Assembly (NCBI RefSeq): GCF_000455125.1
Contig: NZ_AUWR01000072.1
Span: 1 to 37,779, forward strand
Direction: 5' to 3'
Length of the DNA stretch: 37,779 bases
DNA from: Mycobacterium sp. UM_WGJ
Lineage (GTDB): Bacteria; Actinomycetota; Actinomycetes; Mycobacteriales; Mycobacteriaceae
Below are positions 1 through 22,389 of the stretch, piece after piece. Under the pieces are notes generated by a model. That model was not told the DNA's origin, did no database searches, and worked only from the letters and a program-made list of their open reading frames with translations. A program made the translations under genes and the position numbers. Numbering within the stretch: the stretch's first letter is position 1; every line of letters begins with the position of its first letter.

Positions 1-1388
1 CTCGCTGAACCGCCGGCGACTTGCCGCAGCACCGTGTTGGTCAGGGTCCGGGTGACGTTCCACGGCTCGGTGTCGCCGAACTGCCAGGGCCGGGTCGCTC
101 CGGTCAGCTCGCCGGCCGCCCCGGCCCGACGATGGTCGCGTTCGCCGCGGCGTCCCGAAAGTTGCCGCGCCACATCACGTAACGCCGTTTCGCCGAGCCG
201 GCGCATCGCCTTGGGCGACAGCCGCCACTGCCCGTCGGAGCTGCGGTCCAGGAAACCCTGGTTGAGCAGCGCACGTTCGAGCTCGGCCAGCGTGCGCGCG
301 TCGACGGCGGCCTGATCGCCGAGCTGGCGGGCCAGCGCATCGAGGTCGACGTCGTCCATGCTCGCGCCCGGATACGCCTGTGACAGCTGCTCGGCCAGCT
401 GTTCTAGCTCGGCGATATCGGACAGTGCCTGGGCGCCCTCCCCCATCCCGAGCGGGTTATTGCCGGAGAACTCCGACGAGCCGGTCCAGTCCTCTCCCGG
501 ACGGGCCGCCTGCAGATGTGCGTCCAGTCGTCCCAGCGCCTGTTGCAAGGCCGGCGAGCCGAAGGCCTGTTCGGCCAACGCATCCAACTCGGCGCGCTGC
601 TCGGCGCTCAGGCTGTTACGGAAGCGCTGCGCGGCGGCCGCCCGCTGGGCCAGCGAGTCCAGCAGCTCCTCGACATTGCGCGGGTTCTCCGGAAAGAACT
701 CACCGTGTTTGTCCATGAACTGCTGGAAATCCGCACTCGTGTCTTTTCCTTGAGAGTGCTTGTCCAACAGGTCATTGAGATCGTCGAGCATGTCGCTGAC
801 TCGTTGCCGGTCGGCGTCGGTGGCGCCCTCCAGCGCCTGCTTCATGCCGGCGAATCGCTGGTCGAGCATCTCGCGACCGAGCAGATCCTTGATCTTGTCG
901 TAGGATTCGCGGGCCTCGCCGCTGCGCCAGTCGTAGTCGGCCAGTTCCTGCACCGCTTTGGCCGGCGACGGCGACAGCCCCTCGATCTGCATCTCGGCGA
1001 AACGGGCGTCGTCGTCGAGCGCGCGGGCCAGTTCTTTGCGTTCAGCGAGCACTGCTTCGTCGAGCAGCCTTTTAACCTCGGCCAGCGTTCCATCTAAGTT
1101 GTTGCGGCGCAACAGTTCCCGTCGTCGCCGCTGCGCCTCGGCGGCCAGCTGGTCGGCTCCAGTCAGGTTCTTGGTGCCACGGCGCAGCAACTCTTGCAGT
1201 GCCCGCCGCGGCGACGTCCCCTCCATGACGTCCCGGCCGATCTCCTCCAGCGCCTCGGCCAGGTCGACCGGCGGCGCCAACGGATCCGGCCCACCGGAGT
1301 AGGCCGAATACCGGGAAGCGTGGCTTCGTGACGATCGCAAGCGCGGCGAAGCCGGGCGCAGCGGGTCGTCACCATCAGATCTAGCCAT
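1..1388 (-). CDS. VWA-domain partner of MoxR ATPase (Rv0959-like), 3' end outside window
   Basis: An open frame of 462 codons runs from ATG 1388 off the left edge. It encodes a charged, mostly helical protein (for example ASPRRALQELLRRGTKN near the N-terminus, then repeated Leu/Glu/Gln-rich helices). I recognise it as the Rv0959 family, about 670 residues in M. tuberculosis, where a C-terminal von Willebrand A domain follows this helical part; that domain would lie outside the window. The start overlaps the end of the MoxR gene by 8 bases (ATGGCTAG), so the two are probably translationally coupled. MoxR/VWA pairs are generally thought to act as chaperones inserting cofactors or remodelling complexes; the substrate here is unknown. 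Oddly, codons 6 to 20 lie inside a palindromic repeat element (1328-1372) that also occurs between genes near 10,000, giving an Arg/Ser/Pro-rich N-terminus. Confidence 0.85.
   Translation of the reverse strand, partial: MARSDGDDPLRPASPRLRSSRSHASRYSAYSGGPDPLAPPVDLAEALEEIGRDVMEGTSPRRALQELLRRGTKNLTGADQLAAEAQRRRRELLRRNNLDGTLAEVKRLLDEAVLAERKELARALDDDARFAEMQIEGLSPSPAKAVQELADYDWRSGEARESYDKIKDLLGREMLDQRFAGMKQALEGATDADRQRVSDMLDDLNDLLDKHSQGKDTSADFQQFMDKHGEFFPENPRNVEELLDSLAQRAAAAQRFRNSLSAEQRAELDALAEQAFGSPALQQALGRLDAHLQAARPGEDWTGSSEFSGNNPLGMGEGAQALSDIAELEQLAEQLSQAYPGASMDDVDLDALARQLGDQAAVDARTLAELERALLNQGFLDRSSDGQWRLSPKAMRRLGETALRDVARQLSGRRGERDHRRAGAAGELTGATRPWQFGDTEPWNVTRTLTNTVLRQVAGGSA
1328..1372. repeat. 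Palindromic element, core family A, copy 1 (inside a CDS)
   Basis: Perfect 7-bp inverted arms GTGACGA (1328-1334) and TCGTCAC (1366-1372) enclose a 31-bp core (1335-1365). The core differs at only three positions from the one at 10005-10035, but the arms are different there. The core contains an inner palindrome, GGC-gaa-GCC flanked by GCGC on both sides. The element lies within the first codons of the VWA-protein gene. Confidence 0.7.
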
Positions 1389-9997: not shown

Positions 9998-10042
9998 GCG
10001 GTGATCGCAGGCGCGGCGAAGCCGGGCGCCGCGGCTCACCGC
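9998..10042. repeat. Palindromic element, core family A, copy 2
   Basis: Perfect 7-bp arms GCGGTGA (9998-10004) and TCACCGC (10036-10042) enclose a 31-bp core (10005-10035) that differs at three positions from the core at 1335-1365. The arms are unrelated to those of copy 1 yet complementary to each other. It lies 16 bases upstream of the purN start and may affect purN transcription. Confidence 0.7.
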
Positions 10043-10070
10043 CATCGGCGGTGGCGGTTGCGCACGTAGC

Positions 10071-10277
10071 GAAGCTGGAACCGGCGCGAGAACCCGGCGG
10101 TTCAGCGAGGCTCGACGCAGGAGAGCCGAAGGTGGAACCGGCGCAAGAACCCCGCGGTTCAGCGAGGCTCGACGCAGGAGAGCCGAAGCTGGAACCGGCG
10201 CGAGAACCCGGCGGTTCAGCGAGGCTCGACGCAGGAGAGCCGAAGGTGGAACCGCCGCAAAACCCCCCGCGGTTCAG
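10071..10277. repeat. 57-bp tandem array, core family B, 3.6 units in A-B-A-B order
   Basis: Units start at 10071, 10128, 10185 and 10242 (the last is partial). Units 1 and 3 are identical; unit 2 differs from them at three positions, and unit 4 shares two of those changes, so there is a higher-order 114-bp period. In each full unit CGGTTC and GAACCG arms alternate and enclose an inner stem GGCTC/GAGCC. The array begins in the stop codon of the unknown gene at 10274-10753 and fills most of the gap to purN. It has VNTR character. Confidence 0.85.
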
Positions 10278-10753
10278 GCGGAGCGCTGCGCTCGCGCCCG
10301 GGCGACCCGAAGTGCGGCCGCCACGCCGTCCGTCCAGATCTCGACCATGTCCCAGGTGACCTCGGGATGGCCCATCGGCTGAGTCATCTTGCCGAGCTTG
10401 CTGACTCTTGCATACGCCAGGTCCTGAAAGTCGGGGTCGTCCAACTCGGGGAACTCGTCGTACTCACTGCAGAACCCCGCACCCTCCAGCTCGTCGTAGA
10501 GGGACTCGGCCACGTCATCGCTCAATCCGAGAGGTCGCGACTGCGGTGACGGCTCGGTCATCTGCATTCCGGCCTGGACGCCGTCCACCCAGATCAGGAC
10601 CACCACGTCGAGCACCCGCTCATGGCCCGGCGGCAGGATCTGCCCGGTCAGCATCTCGGCCCGGACGCCCGCCAGCATGTTCAGGTTCCGCCGCCTGGGC
10701 ACGCCAGATGAGCCATTCTTGCGGGCTGGCTCGGCGCTCACGACGTCGGTCAT
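10274..10753 (-). CDS. Conserved-looking protein of unknown function with an internal repeat
   Basis: A 159-residue protein that I do not recognise. ATG 10753 is preceded by AGGGGG 5 bases upstream, a good ribosome binding site. The composition is protein-like and acidic in the middle (ELDDPDFQDLAY). Two segments resemble each other: DVVVLIWVDGVQAGMQM near residue 50 and DMVEIWTDGVAAALRVA near the C-terminus, which suggests an internal duplication of a strand-loop-helix unit. No signal peptide or membrane segment is seen. It lies between perM and purN, where I remember no gene in M. tuberculosis. Its stop codon is part of the tandem repeat array. Confidence 0.75.
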   Translation of the reverse strand: MTDVVSAEPARKNGSSGVPRRRNLNMLAGVRAEMLTGQILPPGHERVLDVVVLIWVDGVQAGMQMTEPSPQSRPLGLSDDVAESLYDELEGAGFCSEYDEFPELDDPDFQDLAYARVSKLGKMTQPMGHPEVTWDMVEIWTDGVAAALRVARARAQRSA

Positions 10754-10819
10754 GTCGTCCCCCTGGAGTTCGGACGGTCGGCACCACCCATCCGATCAGC
10801 CAGCGGCGACATATATAAG

Positions 10820-10831
10820 GGACCGAAGTCC
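10820..10831 (-). terminator. UUCG-type hairpin just after perM
   Basis: On the minus strand GGAC-TTCG-GTCC begins 5 bases after the perM stop and is followed by CTTATATATG. A short stem capped by the very stable UUCG loop with a T/A-rich tail fits a terminator for the Rv0954-like/perM operon. Confidence 0.5.
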
Positions 10832-10836
10832 TTGAT

Positions 10837-12306
10837 TTAGCGGTCGTATCCGTCGTCGTCGGTAAACATCAGGTCCTCGGGGTCTTCCAGCGGGCCCGGC
10901 GGCTGCGTCGGCGTGTGTGACCGAAACGTTCGCGGCGGCTCGGGTTCAGGCCTCCACTTCAACTCGCCGTCATCGGTGACCTCATCTGACTGGAAGCCCG
11001 GTTCGAAGTCATCGTCGAACAGCTCGTCGGTTTCGAAGGGCTCTCCGACGACAACGAGGTCCTCGGGATCGACGTCGGCGAGGGGCGCCGGCCCAGATAC
11101 GGAGACGCCTTCGGGCTCCACGGGCCGCTCCGGGGCGGGTGGCAGCACACGCTGTGGCCCGACCACCGCGTCAGCCCGGACCCCGCCGATCATCACCACC
11201 GTCAGTGCTCCGATCGCGGCGAACCACCCGAACACCGCCGGACCGAACGTCAGCTGATCCACACCGACGTCGCCGAAGTTGCCCAACCGGCCTCCACCGG
11301 CCAAGCCGAGTACGGCCATCGACACCGCCGCGATGAATGCCGCCACCGCCACCTTGGCCAGAGCTGGAAGCAGCGGCAGCGGCCGGCGGGCGCACTGCTG
11401 GCCTACGGCAACCCCGGACGCCGCCCCGATGATCAGCAGCGCCACCCACGCGGGGCCCAACGGCGGGACGGGCGCCGCAGCCAGGATCGGCAGCGCGGGG
11501 ATGTCGCCGCCGAGAACGGTGAAGGCACTGAACAGCGCGGGACCGATGTGTGCGCTCGAGCCGACCGCCATCGCCGTCGCGCCGACGAGCACATTGGGCA
11601 CATACAGCAGGGCCAGCAGCGTCAGGCTGAGCTGGCCGAACAGTGAATCGGTGATCGCGTAGAGCTCATGCATAGTCCCCCAGTGCCAGATCAAGGAGCA
11701 CACCGTCACCGCCCCGGCCAGGCCGAACAGCGCCAGCATGCCGGTGATCGCGGCTCGTACCGAGTCCGCCAGCCAATCCGGTAGCCGGGCCTCGGCCAGC
11801 GCCCGACGGCCCACCCGCGTCCCCAAGCCCAGCGCCGCACCGATCACGTGCACGAAAAACACGTGCGCGAAGGCGCTCAGGGCATGGGGGGTCTGCAGTT
11901 CGGTGATGACCGAGGCCGCGTCGTGAATGACCGCCAGGGAGACCGCGGCGATCAACAGTGGTCCACCCACCGCGGAAGCCACGATCCAGCGGATGACGAA
12001 CCAGGAGGCTCCACGGGCGGTGGCCTGCGCGGTGGTTCGGGCCGTACCGGCCACCATCAGCAGCACCGGCAGCAGCGGCAGCGCGCCCAGGTCACGGCCG
12101 CCTATCGATACCGGCACCTGGTGCACGGCCAGCCACATGCTGGCGATGGCACCTGAGGCCCCGGTCATGTCACTGTTGGCGATCAGCAACTGCAGCAGTG
12201 TCACCGCTGCGATGATGGTCAACGCCACCACGGACGGCCCGAAGGCGACCCGTAGCAGGTCGCGGGTCGGGTTCGAGCCTGGTTTGACGCCGGTCACCGA
12301 TGTCAC
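10837..12306 (-). CDS. perM: Integral membrane protein PerM (Rv0955-like, DUF6350)
   Basis: A 489-residue polytopic protein. About residues 15 to 380 contain many hydrophobic segments (for example [18 protein letters not shown] and [12 protein letters not shown]); the last 110 residues are an acidic, Pro-rich cytoplasmic-type tail ([20 protein letters not shown]). I recognise it as the Rv0955 family. In M. tuberculosis PerM was reported to be needed for persistence and for cell division under low magnesium, acting through the divisome protein FtsB. GTG 12306 is taken as start; GTG 12297 is an in-frame alternative. It follows the 34 kDa-antigen-like gene by 36 bases on the same strand, so the two form an operon. 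Confidence 0.88.
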
Positions 12307-12342
12307 GCTGCGAGCACGTTCAACTCGGCGCGCGGGCGCGGG

Positions 12343-13245
12343 TTAGGGCTGCGCCGGCCCCGACGAGGTGGAGCCACCCTGCGACTGCTGGCCACCCGTC
12401 GAGCTCTGATCCGAACCGGCTGCGCTGTGGCCACCGGTCGACGCACTCCCCGACCCACCGGAAGACGGCGGGTTGTAGGACGGAAATCCGGTCGGCGGGG
12501 TCGGCGGCCCCTGCGGCGCCGCCTGCTGTGCGCCGGAGTTGAAAGCGCCCGTCGAAGGGGAGCCCTGCGCCTGCTGCGCGCCGAAGCCGCCGCTGGAAGG
12601 CGCGGAGGGGTAGCTGCCGTACGAGGACGGGTAGCCGGGCTGCTGTGGAGCCTGCTGGCCCTGGTGTCCCGGGTGGCCATAACCCTGCTGGCCGGGCTGA
12701 CCGTAGTAGTTACCGCCCGGCGGCAGGCCGTACTGGGCATAGGGGTCGTACTTGGGACGCGGCGCCGGGGCAGTCACCACGCCGGCCTCCAGCAGCAGCG
12801 ATCCGACCGCGGCGGCAGCCTGCAGGACGCTGAAGATCAGGATCAGCCACAGCCCCCAACCGATGGTGTAGCTACCACTGGCACCGGCGATCGTCGAAAT
12901 AGCCAGCAGCGCACCCAGCGTCGAGACCACGGCGACCACCGCCGTGTAACTCTTCGCCTTGGGCAGCAGGGCCACCGCGGCCAGCAGTGCGGACAGCACC
13001 GCCAGCGGAACGGTGTGGCCTGCGTCGCTGAGGATCAGGGGGTAGTCAACATCGGTGATCGTCACGATCGGACCGAAGTTCGCCAGGTAGACACCCAGCC
13101 CCAACGCAACGACCGCGATTCGGAGGTATTGCGGCACTTTGCTCTCGACGTCGCCACCCGATTTCGCGAACGATGGGGTCGGTTGTCCGTAGGAGCCTGA
13201 TGGTTGTGAGGGCTGGTAGCCGGGATTCCCGGGCGAGTAGGTCAT
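12343..13245 (-). CDS. 34 kDa antigenic-protein-like membrane protein (Rv0954-like)
   Basis: A 300-residue protein. After a polar N-terminus rich in Pro, Gly and Ser ([11 protein letters not shown]), four hydrophobic segments follow (for example [70 protein letters not shown]), then a long low-complexity tail rich in Gln, Gly, Pro and Ser. This matches the mycobacterial 34 kDa antigen family; Rv0954 has been reported as part of the cell-division complex. ATG 13245 is chosen because AGGAGAGG stands directly before it; the frame is open further upstream. The pairing with perM supports a role in septum or envelope assembly. Confidence 0.88.
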
Positions 13246-13365
13246 GACCTCTCCTGTGCTTGTGGGCAGGCGCTGGTGGGCGGTGCGGCGCGCTTCGACC
13301 ATCCACGCTAGCGCACTCGCGGGCCGAGTCGGTGGGTCAACACTGCGCGACCGGCACCCCCCCCG

Positions 13366-13394
13366 TTGCCCACCGAACAGGAACACGTTCTAAT
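13366..13394 (+). promoter_or_regulatory. Promoter of the LLM oxidoreductase
   Basis: TTGCCC (13366-13371), a 17-base spacer and TCTAAT (13389-13394). The -10 box ends 7 bases before ATG 13402, so the transcript is likely leaderless or nearly so, although GGGGA stands before the ATG. Confidence 0.55.
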
Positions 13395-13401
13395 CGGGGA
13401 T

Positions 13402-14250
13402 ATGGATTACGGACTCGTGCTATTCACCAGTGACCGTGGCATCAACCCGGCAGCGGCCGCCAAACTCGCCGATGATCACGGCTTCACCACCTTCTATGTA
13501 CCGGAGCACACGCATATTCCGGTGAAGCGACAGGCCGCGCACCCGACCACCGGCGACGAGTCCCTGCCCGATGACCGGTACATGCGCACCCTGGATCCGT
13601 GGGTCAGCCTGGGAACCGCATGCGCCGTGACCTCGCGGGTGCGGCTGTCCACCGCGGTGGCACTGCCCGTCGAGCATGATCCGATCACGCTGGCGAAGTC
13701 GATCGCCACCCTGGATCACCTGTCCGGCGGACGAGTCAGCCTGGGCGTCGGATTCGGCTGGAACACCGATGAATTGGCCGACCACGGCGTTCCCGCCGGC
13801 CGCCGGCGCACCATGCTTCGGGAGTACCTGGAGGCGATGCGGGCGCTGTGGACCGAGGAAGAGGCGTCCTTCGAAGGCGAGTTCGTGAACTTCGGCCCGA
13901 GTTGGGCTTGGCCCAAGCCCGTGCAGTCGCACATTCCGGTGCTGGTCGGTGCCGCCGGGACCGAGAAGAACTTCAAGTGGATCGCCCGCAGTGCCGACGG
14001 CTGGATCACCACGCCGCGTGACTTCGACATCGACGCCCCGGTCAAACTGCTGCAGGACACCTGGGCGGCCGCCGGCCGCGACGGAGCACCGCAGATCGTG
14101 GCGCTGGATTTCAAGCCGGTGCCCGAGAAGCTGGCGCACTGGGCCGAGATCGGGGTCACCGAGACTCTCTTCGGGCTGCCCGACAAGTCCGAGTCCGAGG
14201 TGGCGGCTTATGTGGAGCGCCTGGCTGCCAAGCTGGGGCTCAGCGCCTAG
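13402..14250 (+). CDS. LLM-class F420-dependent oxidoreductase (Rv0953c-like)
   Basis: A 282-residue luciferase-like monooxygenase-fold protein, the length I recall for Rv0953c. Typical segments are FYVPEHTHIPV near the N-terminus, ATLDHLSGGRVSLGVGFGWNTDEL in the middle and IPVLVGAAGTEKNFKWIARSADGWI after it, the pattern of the TIGR03619-type F420 group. It probably uses F420 rather than FMN; the substrate is unknown. ATG 13402 is chosen over the TTG at 13366 because that TTG is part of the -35 box. It is divergent from the 34 kDa-antigen-like gene, and a bidirectional hairpin separates it from the convergent thiolase-like gene. Confidence 0.88.
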   Translation: MDYGLVLFTSDRGINPAAAAKLADDHGFTTFYVPEHTHIPVKRQAAHPTTGDESLPDDRYMRTLDPWVSLGTACAVTSRVRLSTAVALPVEHDPITLAKSIATLDHLSGGRVSLGVGFGWNTDELADHGVPAGRRRTMLREYLEAMRALWTEEEASFEGEFVNFGPSWAWPKPVQSHIPVLVGAAGTEKNFKWIARSADGWITTPRDFDIDAPVKLLQDTWAAAGRDGAPQIVALDFKPVPEKLAHWAEIGVTETLFGLPDKSESEVAAYVERLAAKLGLSA

Positions 14251-14266
14251 CGCAAGAGCCCCCACT

Positions 14267-14332
14267 CCGCGCGAAGGTGCGTGTTTGTACGGCGACACGC
14301 CAGTTCTGCTGACATTCTGTGCACCCTCGCGG
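14267..14332. terminator. Bidirectional palindrome between convergent genes
   Basis: An outer imperfect inverted repeat, CCGCGCGAAGGTGC (14267-14280) and GCACCCTCGCGG (14321-14332), encloses a perfect inner stem GCGTGT (14279-14284) / ACACGC (14295-14300). It sits between the stops at 14250 and 14349 and can fold from either strand, so it probably terminates both genes. Confidence 0.55.
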
Positions 14333-14348
14333 CGGAACGGTGGCGGGG

Positions 14349-15881
14349 TCAGCGCGGGGAGCAGCGGTTGCCGTAGTCGAGTGCGTGCACCGTCACCGGG
14401 GCGCCCAGCGGGTCGCCGTCGGACATCAGCGCCACCAGATCTTCGTCTTCGGTGGTCGCCAGGAACCGGGTGCCGTCGGCGTCGAGTCGGCCGATGATGA
14501 TCCCGGTCCGGGTCTCCCAGTCGTAACGGACGCTGTAGGTCTCGATGGTGCCCGGCCCCTCGGCACTCTCGGTGACCGGCACGGTGGGCGCGGTGTCGGC
14601 CTGCGCCTGCAGTTCGGCGCTGCGATCGGCCTTCCACGGCACCGGAGTGGTCGAATACACCCCGGTCGAGTACTTGCTCATCATGCCGCCGTTGGCCCCG
14701 ACGAACGTGAATTGGCCTGGGACACTTCGCGCTGAGGCGACGGCCTCGGCGATCGCATGCATGGAGTAGTTGTTGCCGGCGCCGCCGAAGAAGGGCAGCC
14801 CGCCGGTCAGGGTGAGGCCGCGCGGGTCGTCGGCCGACAGGCCGAAGGCATCGCAGATGGCGAACACCGGGACTGGGAAGCAGCTGTAGAGGTCCATCGC
14901 CGCGACGTCGTCGAATCCGATCCCGGCCATCTCGAGCGCCTCGGTGGTGGCCGTGATGGCGGCCGGGTAGGCACTCAGGTCCGGGCGCTCCAGGAGGCGC
15001 TGCTCACGCATGTCTGCGTGGCCGTGCAGGTAGACCCAACGGTCTTGCGGGACGCCCAGGCGGGTGGCGGCCTCCGCCGACATCACCAACACCGCGGCAC
15101 CCTGGTTGACCTGATCCCGCGCCACCAGCAGTCGCGGGTAGGGGTCACAGATCAGGCGGTTGCCGGCGTTGATCGTCGTCAGCTCTTCAACGGAACGCTC
15201 CACCGGCGAGGCCGAAAACGGGTTCTTGGCTGCGATCTTGGTCATCGGGGCGAACAGCTCGGCCATGGCCTGTAGGTAGTCGGCCTTGCTCAGGCCCAAC
15301 CGCGCCCGCCGAGCGTTCTCCAGCAGCCCGTACTGCACCGTGGCACTGGTCAGCCCATGAATGACGGTGTAGTGCTCGACGAACTCCTCAAGCCCGAAAC
15401 CCCGGTCTTCGAGCTGCCCCTCGACCGTCTCACTGAAGTCCGGCTTGTTGTCGGCCTTGGCGAAGTGACGCAGCGTAGAAGTCGCGTCGGACCCGCACAG
15501 CAGCACCACGTCGGCGGTGCCGGCCATGATCTCGCCGGCGAATTCGGTCAGCAGCTTCTGCGGCCCCTGACCGCCCACCTTGTCCAGCACCGCGCGAGCC
15601 GGCTCCGCCCCGATCAAACGCGCAACGGACCGAGGGAAGTTGTTGGACTTGCCTAGCGGCGCAGGGGCTTTCGGAATCGAGATCTCAAACTGGCGGGTGG
15701 CCACCACCGCGTCGATGGCCGACGCGACCTGCTCTGAGCTCGCTCCGCAGTCCACCAATGCCGCCTGCGCCGCGGCTGCGGCCAGCTCCACCGGCGACAT
15801 CGCCCGGTAGTCGGCGTCGTCGATGTGCTCGGCGGCCTGCCCGACGCCGACGACGACGGGAGTGCGGGGGTCAATGCTCAC
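14349..15881 (-). CDS. Thiolase-superfamily protein, acetyl-CoA acetyltransferase-like
   Basis: A 510-residue thiolase-fold protein of the group annotated as acetyl-CoA acetyltransferase in mycobacteria (Rv1867 resembles it in size and motifs as I recall). Visible pieces are PVVVGVGQAAEHI at the N-terminus, VVLLCGSDATSTLRH, MDLYSCFPVPVFAICDAFG and GGLPFFGGAGNNYSMHAI, with a C-terminal beta extension (TGIIIGRLDADGTRFLATT). The classical GHP-x-G-x-S-G motif of biosynthetic thiolases is absent, so activity on acetoacetyl-CoA should not be assumed; a lipid or sterol acyl-CoA substrate is as likely. GTG 15881 has AGGTG 5 bases upstream. It lies between sucD and the LLM gene, where M. tuberculosis has no such gene, so it is a lineage-specific insertion or loss. 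Confidence 0.82.
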   Translation of the reverse strand: MSIDPRTPVVVGVGQAAEHIDDADYRAMSPVELAAAAAQAALVDCGASSEQVASAIDAVVATRQFEISIPKAPAPLGKSNNFPRSVARLIGAEPARAVLDKVGGQGPQKLLTEFAGEIMAGTADVVLLCGSDATSTLRHFAKADNKPDFSETVEGQLEDRGFGLEEFVEHYTVIHGLTSATVQYGLLENARRARLGLSKADYLQAMAELFAPMTKIAAKNPFSASPVERSVEELTTINAGNRLICDPYPRLLVARDQVNQGAAVLVMSAEAATRLGVPQDRWVYLHGHADMREQRLLERPDLSAYPAAITATTEALEMAGIGFDDVAAMDLYSCFPVPVFAICDAFGLSADDPRGLTLTGGLPFFGGAGNNYSMHAIAEAVASARSVPGQFTFVGANGGMMSKYSTGVYSTTPVPWKADRSAELQAQADTAPTVPVTESAEGPGTIETYSVRYDWETRTGIIIGRLDADGTRFLATTEDEDLVALMSDGDPLGAPVTVHALDYGNRCSPR

Positions 15882-15902
15882 GGTTTCACCTCACCACAAA
15901 TG

Positions 15903-15961
15903 CCGACCGTGCCGTCTCATACGCGACGCGCTGCTGGCGGCGTACGAAACGGCACGGTCGG
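15903..15961. repeat. Large imperfect palindrome downstream of sucD, probable terminator
   Basis: Arms of 22 bp (15903-15924 and 15940-15961) pair with two mismatches around a 15-base loop; the outer 13 bp (CCGACCGTGCCGT / ACGGCACGGTCGG) are perfect. It starts 12 bases after the sucD stop and ends before the thiolase-like gene, so it probably isolates sucCD from that gene. There is no long T tract. Confidence 0.65.
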
Positions 15962-15973
15962 GGTTGTTCTTAC

Positions 15974-16876
<903 letters not shown>

Positions 16877-16879
16877 GAC

Positions 16880-18058
<1,179 letters not shown>

Positions 18059-18201
18059 GGGCTCACTGTCTTATTACGGGTAGCCGGAAGGCCGGCACTG
18101 TCGGATTGTGAGAGATTTCGCTCCCGAGGCACTGTATCGAGCCTGCGCCGGGGTTCCCTCCTCGCGTACCACTGCTGTGGCACATCTCACCGCCAGAAAA
18201 A

Positions 18202-18217
18202 CGTGATTCGTTTCACA
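18202..18217. promoter_or_regulatory. Candidate CRP (Rv3676-type) binding site between sucC and the M23 gene
   Basis: CGTGATTCGTTTCACA fits TGTGA-N6-TCACA at all but the first base. It lies about 145 bases upstream of the sucC start and 112 upstream of the M23 peptidase start, so it could serve either gene. Confidence 0.6.
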
Positions 18218-18265
18218 TTAACGCCGGGATTCGGGCGATAGCTTGCCACGCCCCAGCGGGAGTGG

Positions 18266-18295
18266 TTACCGTCACCAAGTCCAGGTCTTTATAAC
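18266..18295 (+). promoter_or_regulatory. Candidate promoter of the M23 peptidase gene
   Basis: TTACCG (18266-18271), an 18-base spacer, then TATAAC (18290-18295). The predicted start is near 18302, leaving a short leader with GAGGAA before ATG 18329. The GTTACCGTCACC stretch over the -35 might be a response-regulator site such as MtrA, but this is only a guess. Confidence 0.45.
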
Positions 18296-18328
18296 GTTCT
18301 GATCACGACCAGAGGAACTTCCAGGCTG

Positions 18329-19345
18329 ATGCAGCACGGTGCACCGATGCGTCCGGTTTCCGGTGGGGCTCTCCCTCGACGTCGAAACGGCGCTACGGCA
18401 GTTGCGATCCGCCCGTCGGCACCCAGTCCCACCGAGGTCACCGACATCATCCCGTTCAACGAGTTCGGCTGGCCCGAGGACGACTTCAGCGAAGACGTGT
18501 TCGACGAGGCGTCGGACGTATTGCTGGCCCCTGAGCTCGACGACATGACCGACACCGACAACATGCCGGTTCTGCAGTTGGCGTTCCCCCGCGGCGGCTA
18601 TTCGGACAGCTACTACCGTCCGCACGGGGCGGCCCAGCTGCCCCCGCGCCGCGGTAAGCACCGCAGCCAGCCCGCCAGTGCTGTCAAGAGTCGCGTGATG
18701 ATCGCGGCGATGGCCGCCGGTGCGGCCGCTGCCGCCGCGCACGCCGCCACCCACCAGTCCGACGAGACCGTTGCCCGACCGGCCGTGCTGGCGGCCAGCA
18801 AGACCGCGCTAAACAACGGCACCACGACGTCCAGCCACGGCTTGCAGATGATCACGGTGAAGGCTGCGGCCAGCGTCGTCGTGCACAACGAGGAGCTGGC
18901 CAAGGGCATGGCGTTCGCTCAGGAGCGCGCCGAGCGTGAAGCCCGGCTGCAGCGCCCGTTGTTCGTCGCCCCCACCCAGGGCGCGTTCACCTCGAACTTC
19001 GGCTACCGCTGGGGCGTGCTGCACGCCGGAATCGACATCGCCAACGCCATTGGCACCCCGATCCTGGCGGCCTCTGACGGTGTGGTGATCGAGTCGGGCC
19101 CCAGTGCGGGTTACGGCATGCTGGTCAAGCTGCGCCACTCCGACGGAACCGTGACGCTCTACGGCCACATCAACCGGTCGCTGGTCAGCGTGGGTGAGCG
19201 GGTGATGGCGGGCGACCAGATCGCCGAGATGGGCAATCGCGGCTACTCGACCGGTCCGCACCTGCACTTCGAGGTGCTGCAGAACGGCACCAACCGGATC
19301 GACCCGACTTCCTGGCTCGCCAAGCGCGGGATCAATTTCGCCTGA
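18329..19345 (+). CDS. M23 (LytM-type) zinc metallopeptidase, membrane-anchored (Rv0950c-like)
   Basis: A 338-residue protein. The N-terminal 115 residues are acidic and probably cytoplasmic; a hydrophobic segment around 121-140 (SRVMIAAMAAGAAAAAAHAA) is the membrane anchor. The M23 domain fills 210-330, with zinc ligands H232-x3-D236 (HAGID), the conserved His280 (LYGH) and HLH at 311-313. All key residues are present, so this should be an active peptidoglycan endopeptidase rather than a degenerate EnvC-type activator. It is divergent from sucC, as in M. tuberculosis. A long palindrome (19352-19418) follows the stop. Confidence 0.92.
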   Translation: MQHGAPMRPVSGGALPRRRNGATAVAIRPSAPSPTEVTDIIPFNEFGWPEDDFSEDVFDEASDVLLAPELDDMTDTDNMPVLQLAFPRGGYSDSYYRPHGAAQLPPRRGKHRSQPASAVKSRVMIAAMAAGAAAAAAHAATHQSDETVARPAVLAASKTALNNGTTTSSHGLQMITVKAAASVVVHNEELAKGMAFAQERAEREARLQRPLFVAPTQGAFTSNFGYRWGVLHAGIDIANAIGTPILAASDGVVIESGPSAGYGMLVKLRHSDGTVTLYGHINRSLVSVGERVMAGDQIAEMGNRGYSTGPHLHFEVLQNGTNRIDPTSWLAKRGINFA

Positions 19346-19351
19346 TACGAC

Positions 19352-19418
19352 GGCGCCGGCCTGTCCCCCGCAAGCGGGTGGTGCGCCAGCGCCCGGCTCC
19401 ATCGCGCTTGCCGGCGCC
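19352..19418. repeat. Palindromic element downstream of the M23 gene
   Basis: Perfect 9-bp arms GGCGCCGGC (19352-19360) and GCCGGCGCC (19410-19418) enclose a 49-base core with its own small hairpin CCCGC-aa-GCGGG. It lies 6 bases after the M23 stop and 11 before the next ORF, so it can end M23 transcription and also abuts the next promoter. Confidence 0.6.
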
Positions 19419-19429
19419 GCTAGCCTGGA

Positions 19430-19984
19430 ATGGTGAGCGACCGCCACCAGCCACCGACCGGCGCCAGTTCCTCCAGACCCTCCGGGACCGATCCGGCGAG
19501 TCCTCCCAGCCGCATCATCCGCCGGGCACCCACCGGCGCCATCCCGATCGTCACCGGCTCGGGCCGGATACCGCCGGCCATCCAGCCCAGCCCCGCGGCA
19601 TTGCCGGCGCAGTTCCCGTCAGCCGGCGTCGCGATCAGTGCCTGCGTGCTCGCCCTGATCGGCTGTTGGGCCACCTCGGTGGTCTCCACCGATCTGATCG
19701 CCAGCTGGTGGCATACCGACCGGCTGTTCTGTGTCGCGGTGGGTTTCTTGAGTCTGGTGTTCGCCGGGACCACGGTGTCCGGCGTGATCATGCTGCTGCT
19801 GCGGCGGCCAGTCAGCCGCTACCTGATCGCGGTCGGAGCGGTGGTCGCCCTGCTGACTTACGGCAGTCTGTTCCTGGCGGGGGCCCGCGTGCCGGGGATC
19901 GTGCACGTCATCCCGGTCATCCAGATCGCCACCGTAGCCACAGCACTGCACCCGGCTACCAGGCGCTGGCTCTTCGGCAGTTAG
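19430..19984 (+). CDS. Small membrane protein of unknown function
   Basis: 184 residues. The first 60 are polar and rich in Pro, Ser and Arg; four hydrophobic segments follow (ISACVLALIGCWATSVV, LFCVAVGFLSLVFAGTTV, YLIAVGAVVALLTYGSLFL, VIPVIQIATVATAL), joined by short Arg-containing loops. No known domain is recognised. ATG 19430 and GTG 19433 are both possible; TAGCCT ends 4 bases before the ATG and 7 before the GTG, which favours a leaderless GTG start. The gene ends inside the palindromic cluster at 19974-20068, convergent with uvrD1. Confidence 0.7.
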   Translation: MVSDRHQPPTGASSSRPSGTDPASPPSRIIRRAPTGAIPIVTGSGRIPPAIQPSPAALPAQFPSAGVAISACVLALIGCWATSVVSTDLIASWWHTDRLFCVAVGFLSLVFAGTTVSGVIMLLLRRPVSRYLIAVGAVVALLTYGSLFLAGARVPGIVHVIPVIQIATVATALHPATRRWLFGS

Positions 19985-20068
19985 CGAGCCTCGACGCAGG
20001 AGAGGCGAAGCTGGACTGCCGACGAAAATCGGCAGTTAGCGGGACTGCCGACTCAAAACTTCGGCAGT
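19974..20068. repeat. Cluster of nested palindromes between convergent genes (core family B)
   Basis: Five alternating 8-bp arms occur: TCGGCAGT at 19974, 20029 and 20061, and ACTGCCGA at 20015 and 20044. Between the first two lies the same core as in the 10071-10277 array, but with inner stem GCCTC/GAGGC instead of GGCTC/GAGCC. The other gaps are loops of 6 and 9 bases. The arms include the stop codons of both flanking genes, so the cluster should terminate transcription in both directions. Confidence 0.75.
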
Positions 20069-22389
20069 TAGAGCTTGGTCACCGGCGCATGGTTGTGCAT
20101 CAGCTTGACCCGCCCGGAACTGCCGAAGTCGATCAGCGACATCGCCGACTCGCCGACCCCGGAGACTTCCTCCACCCGCCCCAGGCCGTACTTGTCATGG
20201 GTGACCCGATCCCCCGGCGCCAACACCAGTAACGGCCGGCTGCCCGATCGGCTCGGTGCCGGTCTGGGGGTCCCGAACCGGCCCGCGCCGCTGACCGGAG
20301 CGCTCGGCGAGGCGGTGACGTCGGTCCGGCGCCAATCGATGAGCTGCTGCGGGATCTCCCGTAGGAATCGCGACTCCGGGTTCAACATCGGCTGTCCCCA
20401 TGACGAACGCACCTTGGCCCGGCTCAGATACAGCCGTTGCCGTGCTCGGGTCAGGCCGACGTAGGCCAGCCGCCGTTCCTCGGACAGCTCGCGGGCATCC
20501 CCCAGCGAGCGCATGTGCGGGAACATGCCGTCCTCCCAGCCGACGACGAACACCACTGGGAACTCCAGCCCTTTGGCGGTGTGCAGCGTCATCAGGGTGA
20601 CCATGCCCGACCCGTGCTCGGGGATCTCGTCGGTATCGGCGATCAGCGAGACCCGCTCCAGAAACGCCGCCAGCACCCCGACATCAGGTACATCCTCCTC
20701 ATCGAGGCCGCCGTCTTGGTCAGCGAGTGCGTTGGCCCGGTCGATGCTGAACTCGTGTGCGACGCTGACGAGCTCGTTGATGTTGTCCAGACGGGCCAGA
20801 TCCTGCGGATCGGTCGAAGCCTCCAGCTCGGCGCGGTAGCCGGTGCGGTCCAGCACCAGCTCCACCAGGCCACCGAGGTCGTCGTCGCCGGTGTTCAGAT
20901 GCGCCCGCAACTCCTCCAGCATCGCCACGAAGGCGGCGATCGCGTTCTGCGAACGGCTGTTGAGCATCGGCACGCCGCCCTCTGCGGCAGCAGCCAGCGC
21001 CGCGGCGAACCCCGTGCCGGTGTTCTCCGCATGCACCGACACGCAGGCCTCGGCACGGTCGCCGATACCGCGGCGCGGGGTGTTGAGGATGCGCCGCAGG
21101 CTCACCGCGTCGCCGGGATTGTCGAGCACTCGCAGGTAGGCGATGATGTCGCGGATCTCCTTGCGTTCGTAGAAGCGCACGCCGCCAACGACTTTGTACG
21201 GGATACCGCTGCGGATGAACACCTCTTCCAGCGACCGCGACGCGTTGTTGGTGCGGTAGAACACCGCGACGTCGCTGTAGTTGACCGCGCCCGCATCGGT
21301 CAGCTCATCGATCTCCTGAGCGACGAACCGCGCCTCGTCGTGTTCGTTGTCGGCGACGTAGCCGACGATCAGCTCGCCGTCACCGGCGTCGGTCCACAGT
21401 CGCTTCTCCCGGCGCCCGGAGTTGTAGGCGATCACCGCGTTGGCCGCCGAGAGGATGTTCTGCGTGGAGCGGTAGTTCTGCTCCAACAGGATGGTGGTCG
21501 CGTCGGGGTAGTCGCGCTCGAAATCCTCGATGTTGCGGATGGTGGCGCCCCGGAAGGCGTAGATCGACTGATCGGCATCACCGACCACGCACAGTTCCGC
21601 CGGCGGCAGGTCGTCGCCGCCCGCGCCGGCCTGCGGTCCGTGCCCCGCGAGCTCGCGCACAAGCATGTACTGGGCATGGTTGGTGTCCTGATACTCGTCG
21701 ACCAGGATGTGCCGGAATCGGCGCCGGTAGTGCTGGGCGATCTCCGGAAAGGCCTGCAGAATCGCGACCGTCTCACCGATCAGGTCGTCGAAGTCCAGCG
21801 CGTTGGCCGACCGCAGCCGGCGCTGATACTCCGCGTAGACCGAAGCCACCACCCGGCTCAGGTCATCGGAGCTCTCGGTGAGGTCGGCCAGCGCCCGGTC
21901 CGGGTCGATCAGTTCGTTCTTCAGGTTGGAGATCGCATTGGCCAGCAACCGGGGCGAGTGCCGCTTGACGTCCAGGCCCATGTCGCGGCCGATCATCAAC
22001 AGCAGCCGCCGCGAATCGTCGGCGTCATAGATCGAGAAGTTCGAGTTCAGCCCCGGGACGACCGAGGCCTGGTTACGCAGGATCCGCACGCAGGTGGAGT
22101 GGAACGTCGACACCCACATCACCCGGGCCCGGGGCCCGACCAGACTCGACACCCGCTCGCGCATCTCCGCGGCGGCCTTGTTGGTGAAGGTGATCGCCAG
22201 GATCTGCCCCACTCCGACGTCGCGGGCGGCCAGCAGATAGGCGATACGCCGGGTGAGCACCGCAGTCTTTCCCGAGCCGGCCCCGGCCACGATCAGCAGC
22301 GGGGAGCCCTCATGCAGCACGGCCCGGCGCTGCTGCGGGTTGAGCCCGTCGAGGAGGTGATCGGTCTGCGGAGTCGCGTGCACTGTCAT
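20068..22389 (-). CDS. uvrD1: UvrD1/PcrA-type SF1 DNA helicase
   Basis: A 773-residue superfamily 1A helicase (M. tuberculosis UvrD1 about 771). Motif I is GAGSGKT at residues 36-42; motif Ia (ILAITFTNKAAAEMRER), motif II (DEYQDTN), motif III (GDADQSIYAFRGA), motif IV (QNYRSTQNIL), motif V (TLHTAKGLEFPVVFV) and motif VI (VGLTRARQRLYL) are all present. The C-terminal KYGLGRVEEVSGVG stretch is the Tudor-like domain that contacts RNA polymerase or Ku in related proteins. ATG 22389 is chosen over an upstream extension that only overlaps other genes. It acts in excision repair and replication-fork maintenance. The gene is divergent from chorismate mutase. Confidence 0.98.
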   Translation of the reverse strand: MTVHATPQTDHLLDGLNPQQRRAVLHEGSPLLIVAGAGSGKTAVLTRRIAYLLAARDVGVGQILAITFTNKAAAEMRERVSSLVGPRARVMWVSTFHSTCVRILRNQASVVPGLNSNFSIYDADDSRRLLLMIGRDMGLDVKRHSPRLLANAISNLKNELIDPDRALADLTESSDDLSRVVASVYAEYQRRLRSANALDFDDLIGETVAILQAFPEIAQHYRRRFRHILVDEYQDTNHAQYMLVRELAGHGPQAGAGGDDLPPAELCVVGDADQSIYAFRGATIRNIEDFERDYPDATTILLEQNYRSTQNILSAANAVIAYNSGRREKRLWTDAGDGELIVGYVADNEHDEARFVAQEIDELTDAGAVNYSDVAVFYRTNNASRSLEEVFIRSGIPYKVVGGVRFYERKEIRDIIAYLRVLDNPGDAVSLRRILNTPRRGIGDRAEACVSVHAENTGTGFAAALAAAAEGGVPMLNSRSQNAIAAFVAMLEELRAHLNTGDDDLGGLVELVLDRTGYRAELEASTDPQDLARLDNINELVSVAHEFSIDRANALADQDGGLDEEDVPDVGVLAAFLERVSLIADTDEIPEHGSGMVTLMTLHTAKGLEFPVVFVVGWEDGMFPHMRSLGDARELSEERRLAYVGLTRARQRLYLSRAKVRSSWGQPMLNPESRFLREIPQQLIDWRRTDVTASPSAPVSGAGRFGTPRPAPSRSGSRPLLVLAPGDRVTHDKYGLGRVEEVSGVGESAMSLIDFGSSGRVKLMHNHAPVTKL

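Follow-up and report, generated by a model that had tools for sequence, protein, structure and literature searches.

The window, by which we mean the whole stretch of 37,779 nucleotides of DNA that was analyzed, carries copies of a palindromic repeat at two loci. At the first, Tandem Repeats Finder reported a tandem array at 10070-10277 with 3.6 copies of a 57-bp unit, and the cores of the array lie at 10104-10134, 10161-10191, and 10218-10248. The second has a separate core at 19983-20013. The near identity of the cores at the two loci was already noted in a preliminary description of this DNA and is borne out here, with the second core ending at 20013 instead of 20014. That description was without the core-less derivative at 20029-20059, the truncated unit at 10070-10091, and the element arm at 1-17, which are included in the following list of features.

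1-17, minus strand: left arm of a further copy, cut by the contig end; GCCGGCGGTTCAGCGAG on the minus strand reaches the contig end
10070-10091, plus strand: right end of the truncated first array unit, CGAAGCTGGAACCGGCGCGAGA
10092-10099, plus strand: 8-mer ACCCGGCG, resembling a target duplication and forming the outer left arm of the first full unit
10100-10148, plus strand: array unit 1, 49 bp, core 10104-10134
10157-10205, plus strand: array unit 2, core 10161-10191
10214-10262, plus strand: array unit 3, core 10218-10248
10271-10276, plus strand: partial terminal left arm GGTTCA, in which TCA provides, on the minus strand, the TGA stop of ORF 10274-10753
19973-20028, plus strand: short-arm copy with left arm TTCGGCAGTT, core 19983-20013, and right arm ACTGCCGA at 20015-20022
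20029-20059, plus strand: core-less derivative unit TCGGCAGTTAGCG-GGACTGCCGACTCAAAAC
20060-20071, plus strand: direct repeat TTCGGCAGTTAG at the right end, including the stop of a pcrA/uvrD-type gene

The 8-mer at 10092-10099 was placed by analogy with the pooled comparison of filled and empty alleles described below, no empty allele of the array site having given a junction. The letters previously given for the inner stem, GGCTC..GAGCC in the array and GCCTC..GAGGC at 19983, are correct, and the difference between them amounts to one base pair only (G-C versus C-G). Likewise, the outer arms CGGTTC/GAACCG of the array and TCGGCAGT/ACTGCCGA of the 19983 locus are present and self-complementary within each locus. 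The left arm TTCGGCAGTT of the copy at 19973-20028 consists of the final codons of the ORF ending at 19984 together with its TAG stop. At this second locus TTCGGCAGTTAG is the end of an ORF with its stop, the same 12 bases recur at the right end, with inverted copies, ACTGCCGA, in between. A pattern search of the window returned three matches where 0.04 were expected by chance, the pattern detecting the array only. The predicted fold of 19976-20024 has an energy of -25.9 kcal/mol, and the 19983 copy, alone or together with the core-less derivative, folds better than 200/200 shuffles (z -4.9 for the copy); for the first array unit z was -2.1, and 9/200 shuffles were equal or better.

The two convergent genes of the second locus abut directly in Mycolicibacter sp. 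MYC340 (L082; ..TTCGGGAGTTAgagc), and the window holds the element at the same junction. Four cores with 56-bp spacing occupy this junction in L084; the other relatives inspected showed no core at this place. At the upstream array locus, no core was seen in any of the 11 relatives inspected, and L084 retains a piece resembling an element end. A different, GC-rich palindrome-like repeat of GATCGCAAGCGCGGCGAAGCCGGGCGCCGCGG type lies at 9998-10043 of the window, upstream of purN, and occurs twice in L084; a similar sequence of this type is found in L087 and L091 at the exact gene junction that bears the present element in the window.

Size and distribution of the repeat family

The two window loci belong to a large interspersed family, of which 88 cores were found at ≤3 mismatches in the window's genome (4.47 Mb in 116 contigs), and a reversed control gave none. 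When the genus was searched at ≤2 mismatches with one extra core position left free, the core was present in 14 of 248 genomes at 1 to 155 copies each, with zero control matches in each genome listed. Among named genomes, the window has orthologues at 15 loci of Mycolicibacter (L079-L093) and at 50 more in genomes named Mycobacterium or Mycolicibacterium; among the first 22 loci examined, those with cores were two Mycolicibacter loci, L082 and L084, and these named relatives point to Mycolicibacter as the identity of the 14 core-bearing genomes. A covariance model (R1) matched 29 of the 248 genomes, with counts per genome that are lower bounds set by the candidates scored, and the best loci in the 15 genomes added by the model look longer or diverged. 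Across 301 genomes of the taxonomic family, R1 matched seven at E ≤1e-4, all from one genus out of 31. No match was found in the phages, plasmids, and viral contigs searched, and published titles and abstracts among the matches listed included none describing the present repeat family, which is a weak negative.

The window's genome also has a long-type two-unit array (contig C4). Spacing is 57 bp in the arrays inside genes of this genome (L039 and L061) and 55, 56, 57, or 58 bp elsewhere. At least six contig ends lie in repeat copies (window 1-17 and the ends of C1, C13, C46, C75, and C78); copy number is therefore probably underestimated, and arrays break the assembly. Several isolated occurrences were noted in other genomes. 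A 6.0-Mb genome (G117) has a single short-type copy (L152) that is its sole core match, possibly a recent transfer, and diverged-subtype tandem arrays occur in two other mycobacterial genomes (L160 in G175 and L171 in G056). In L166, L168, L169, and L170, from four genomes, one gene has the long subtype at what appears to be its 3' end, and the repeat seems to supply its TGA stop.

Insertion sites and gene context

Three relatives were compared, 400 kb each. Pairs of filled and empty alleles differing by exactly 57n bp (57 bp or the array length) numbered 17 at eight distinct sites, and only these pairs entered the pooled analysis; the empty alleles are from sister species and serve as proxies for the ancestral site, and 2/17 pairs use an allele of G022 that may be a loss. 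With the first core base taken as 0, the empty allele follows the left copy as far as about -13, after which, beginning at -12, it follows the right copy, and joint agreement is best at -12 to -5, although it is modest at -9 and -7 (0.53 to 0.65 over the 17 pooled pairs). The majority host letters at -12 to -5 are ACCCGGCG, with C at -6 in 16/17 pairs and G at -5 in 14/17. These alignments suggest a 49-bp element with an 8-bp target duplication like ACCCGGCG, a length drawn from columns pooled over eight sites. The pairs that were excluded differ by 51 bp (L031, in a Mur ligase gene), 60 and 63 bp (two apparently coding sites), 55 or 56 bp (L073), and other amounts.

Copy number differs at the same site between genomes: L061 has three units and its counterpart in G069 one, and L034 has one unit where G069 has three. 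At the site of L003, which is filled in G069 also and empty in G016, G022 lacks 57 bp yet retains a left-arm-like stretch; the G022 allele looks like a unit-length loss.

Sixteen of the 65 loci in the window's genome are situated in a single stop-free frame whose codon score is the best on either side, ten of them in plus frame 1, five in minus frame 0, and one in minus frame 2. The remainder lie between convergent (11), tandem (12), or divergent (2) genes or in an unclear context (24). Where a left-hand plus-strand gene has its stop near the element, that stop falls within -15 to +20 of the left edge in 21 of the 27 genes listed. A Pfam match spans the insert in, for example, Mur ligase, AMP-binding, SRAP, GT87 (with two units), and ADC genes. 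The Mur ligase gene with the insert has the middle and C-terminal Mur ligase domains, with a MurD-like N domain below the cut-off, and a nitrilase-type gene carries three units. In the Pfam scan of 20 frames, L001, L060, and L074 were without any match; L037 and L069 look gene-internal by Pfam but failed the codon criterion. The pcrA-type gene of Mycolicibacter sp. MYC340 is 57 nt longer than that of the window in one aligned frame, with a copy at that place. The linker of this gene holds a short copy in L082; it holds a longer homologous copy in L113, L117, L129, and L133, and in other species the linker is short or shows possible remnants.

Covariation of the outer and inner stem

From the two window loci, the preliminary description had argued for covariation at two levels of the stem. 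In an alignment of many copies, one unit was taken from each of 63/65 loci (two at contig ends were excluded); the arms were long/long in 52, short/short in nine, and mixed in two, and 61 loci were left after removal of two of mixed or unclear arm length. The control consisted of 5000 shufflings of whole right arms among loci, which, as copies of one element, are not independent. Paired outer-arm cells amounted to 457/488, versus 439.2 (SD 2.3) after shuffling, and there were 13 double changes versus 1.96 (SD 1.29), with none of the 5000 shuffles as high. A count on an ungapped alignment, in which the short-arm rows are shifted, was concordant (91.7% versus 84.8% paired). The claim therefore stands for the outer arms.

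All 13 double changes are located at the five outer pairs, in counts of 1, 2, 1, 4, and 5; by the pooled comparison of filled and empty alleles, these pairs take their left base from duplicated host DNA. No double change occurs at the three more internal pairs, with their nearly invariant left base. At the outer five pairs, 29 variant left bases are accompanied by 13 pair-restoring right changes, seven wobble pairs, and nine unpaired positions; opposite a left base of the common kind, 18/276 right bases differ. The double changes at L001 and L063, two of the 13, occur in right arms that otherwise pair poorly. The right arm is unique among the 63 loci in seven of the 13 restored-pair loci and common to one to three other loci in six, and donor choice by arm homology is possible. 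Unmatched right arms also occur (L032 and others), so that the match between arms and landing site is frequent but not universal. The outer covariation does not look like slow compensation between copies.

At the inner level, a compensated double change is not supported: a single pair is involved, and it commonly has G opposite G. In the 61 loci, inner pair 2 is G/G in 27, G-C in 16, C-G in 12, T-G in two, G-T in one, and other combinations in three, with C/C in none. Because the commonest state, G/G, is unpaired, the inner swap represents two single steps and not one compensated exchange; each of the window stems, once described as a compensatory swap, is one substitution from the commonest form (G/G, 27/61). 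Slow double compensation of the inner pair was also considered and is unsupported by the pair-2 counts. The longer subtype in L113, L117, and L133 likewise has G opposite G at this pair. The absence of C/C gave a Fisher p of 0.012 in the 61 loci. In other genomes, 99 places among the matches listed, tallied by hand with one per array and C or G required on both sides, comprised one C/C, 13 C-G, 25 G-C, and 60 G/G (p 0.11). Both sets together gave p 0.003, a value that includes orthologous copies, which are not independent. C/C at inner pair 2 is avoided to some degree.

Origin of the repeat and comparison with known systems

The 88 cores versus none in the control, the presence of the core in 14/248 genomes, the filled and empty alleles, the in-frame loci, and the varying unit number together argue strongly that the family is a small non-autonomous mobile palindromic repeat. 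By analogy, it is best read as working like the palindromic elements of Rickettsia, REP, and MITEs. The element proper would be ~49 bp, GTTC-AGCGAGGCTCGACGNAGGAGAGGCGAAGCTG-GGACCGCCGCATGA, and insertion at ACCCGGCG-like targets with duplication of ~8 bp would give the host 57 bp (19 codons). With at least one stop-free frame per strand, copies persist inside proteins, and others persist beside stop codons; copy number at a site shifts by whole units, and the core is sometimes lost. The outer stem would be half host, its left side being the duplicated target and its right side being carried by the element and often, but not always, matching the local target. We infer that the copies moved, that a factor acting in trans moves them, and that the arms were re-matched by hairpin-templated repair, template switching, or selection. 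The transposase search covered the Y1 family (PF01797) and gave no match in the window's genome (G000, a draft of 116 contigs), whereas 5/14 control genomes matched. The left-arm pattern at one mismatch gave 132 matches versus 20 for a control. Sixteen left-arm stretches among the matches listed proved to be the long-type array on C4, copies that are core-less or diverged, ends of contigs, or probable chance matches; no parent insertion sequence sharing the ends of the element was recognized among them.

How arm and target come to match is approached here tentatively. The target may complete the hairpin: the element would bring one side of the outer stem, the duplicated host site would be the other, and an inverted host copy would then be written into the element arm. 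If this is true, the covariation is a trace of insertion and not of RNA selection, and the repeat is an RPE-like system in Actinobacteria without RAYT. Microhomology-driven template switching would need no enzyme; a nascent strand would leave a GGCGGTTCAG-like target, copy the element elsewhere, and return, so that direct repeats and a target-matched hairpin are left behind. We regard this route as rather doubtful. It is consistent with the lack of a Y1 transposase in the genome, with the unique right arms at 7/13 restored-pair loci, and with host sequence right of the insertion that resembles the element left arm at several sites (G016 GCCGGTTC and L060 GCGGTTA, judged by eye and unscored), but the pooled duplication is centered on 8 bp and does not have a free range, and the core is very uniform across genomes.

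The preliminary description had proposed a selected fold in RNA or single-stranded DNA. The outer covariation that it invoked is present, but double changes occur only at host-derived left bases, and the inner pair is commonly unpaired. A conserved structured RNA (a terminator, 3'-end stabilizer, or attenuator) with a stem kept by selection would fit the arm covariation in excess of shuffles, the stable folds, the 11 convergent versus 2 divergent loci, and the stops at the left edge. It is nonetheless unlikely, given that 16/65 loci are within open frames and a terminator there would truncate the message, that G opposite G is the commonest inner pair 2, that double changes are confined to pairs with a host-derived left base, and that occupancy varies between close relatives. 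No T-run (U-tract) follows the stem at either window locus, a weak test as 0.4 and 0.2 were expected by chance, and Rfam at gathering scores returned no match for the window or for four loci. Ordinary VNTR/MIRU-type minisatellites expanding only in place would fit the 55-58-bp tandem arrays, which are like the 53-57-bp units of M. intracellulare typing markers (PMC2861668), but are very improbable here, being already contradicted by the single-copy occupancy of many unlinked sites for which relatives have empty alleles.

The mobile palindromic repeat thus remains the preferred reading, and it has counterparts among known systems. In-frame palindromic repeats are best known from Rickettsia, and to our knowledge how they move is an open question. 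In the excerpts available of PMC3733652, RPE/REP are short interspersed palindromes found mostly downstream of genes, between unidirectional or convergent genes, with some in frame in ORFs, including that of a UvrD/REP helicase, and with stop codons supplied by the repeat. The present repeat is similar in these respects, including RPE-like in-frame insertion in protein-coding genes. It differs from REP/RPE in having no GTAG or CGTC tag at its inferred ends (GTTC and ATGA), CGTC occurring only in the loop, and from REP with RAYT in that the window's genome is without a Y1 (IS200/IS605-type) transposase. A different, mycobacterial sequence, a 57-bp gain, and an apparent 8-bp duplication forming half of the outer stem also set it apart. 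Bacterial MITEs (NEMIS, RUP, and others), as excerpted from the same article, are likewise non-autonomous, palindromic, often beside genes, and associated with an apparent target duplication. The present repeat is ~49 bp, in contrast to the 70-300 bp quoted there (PMC3733652); its inverted repeats are not at the extreme ends, and no parent insertion sequence was recognized.

MIRU of M. tuberculosis and its relatives, in the parts available of PMC12548453 and PMC4128351, are also mycobacterial, short, interspersed, arranged in tandem arrays, and in contact with start or stop codons. They are apparently mobile and insert at start codons (PMC12548453, in part) with -4 coupling, whereas the present copies are mostly after stops or inside frames, a comparison made by description only. 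A MIRU10 primer had a sole match at one mismatch (G071) among 396 genomes of the genus, and no array was seen there. The MIN 31 primer, taken from the available portion of PMC2861668, matched 3/18 genomes; L251 had no tandem repeat, and R1 had no match in L251, L252, or L253. In M. tuberculosis, a tandem duplication of 57 bp has been reported at the dop promoter (PMC12817950).

The present family offers sites that are filled in one genome and empty in a close relative, a candidate target and duplication, and copies inside Mur ligase and pcrA-type helicase genes. It also carries a warning that covariation in a mobile palindrome need not signify a selected RNA fold. Mobility, protein tolerance, and arm re-matching all become testable in this repeat.
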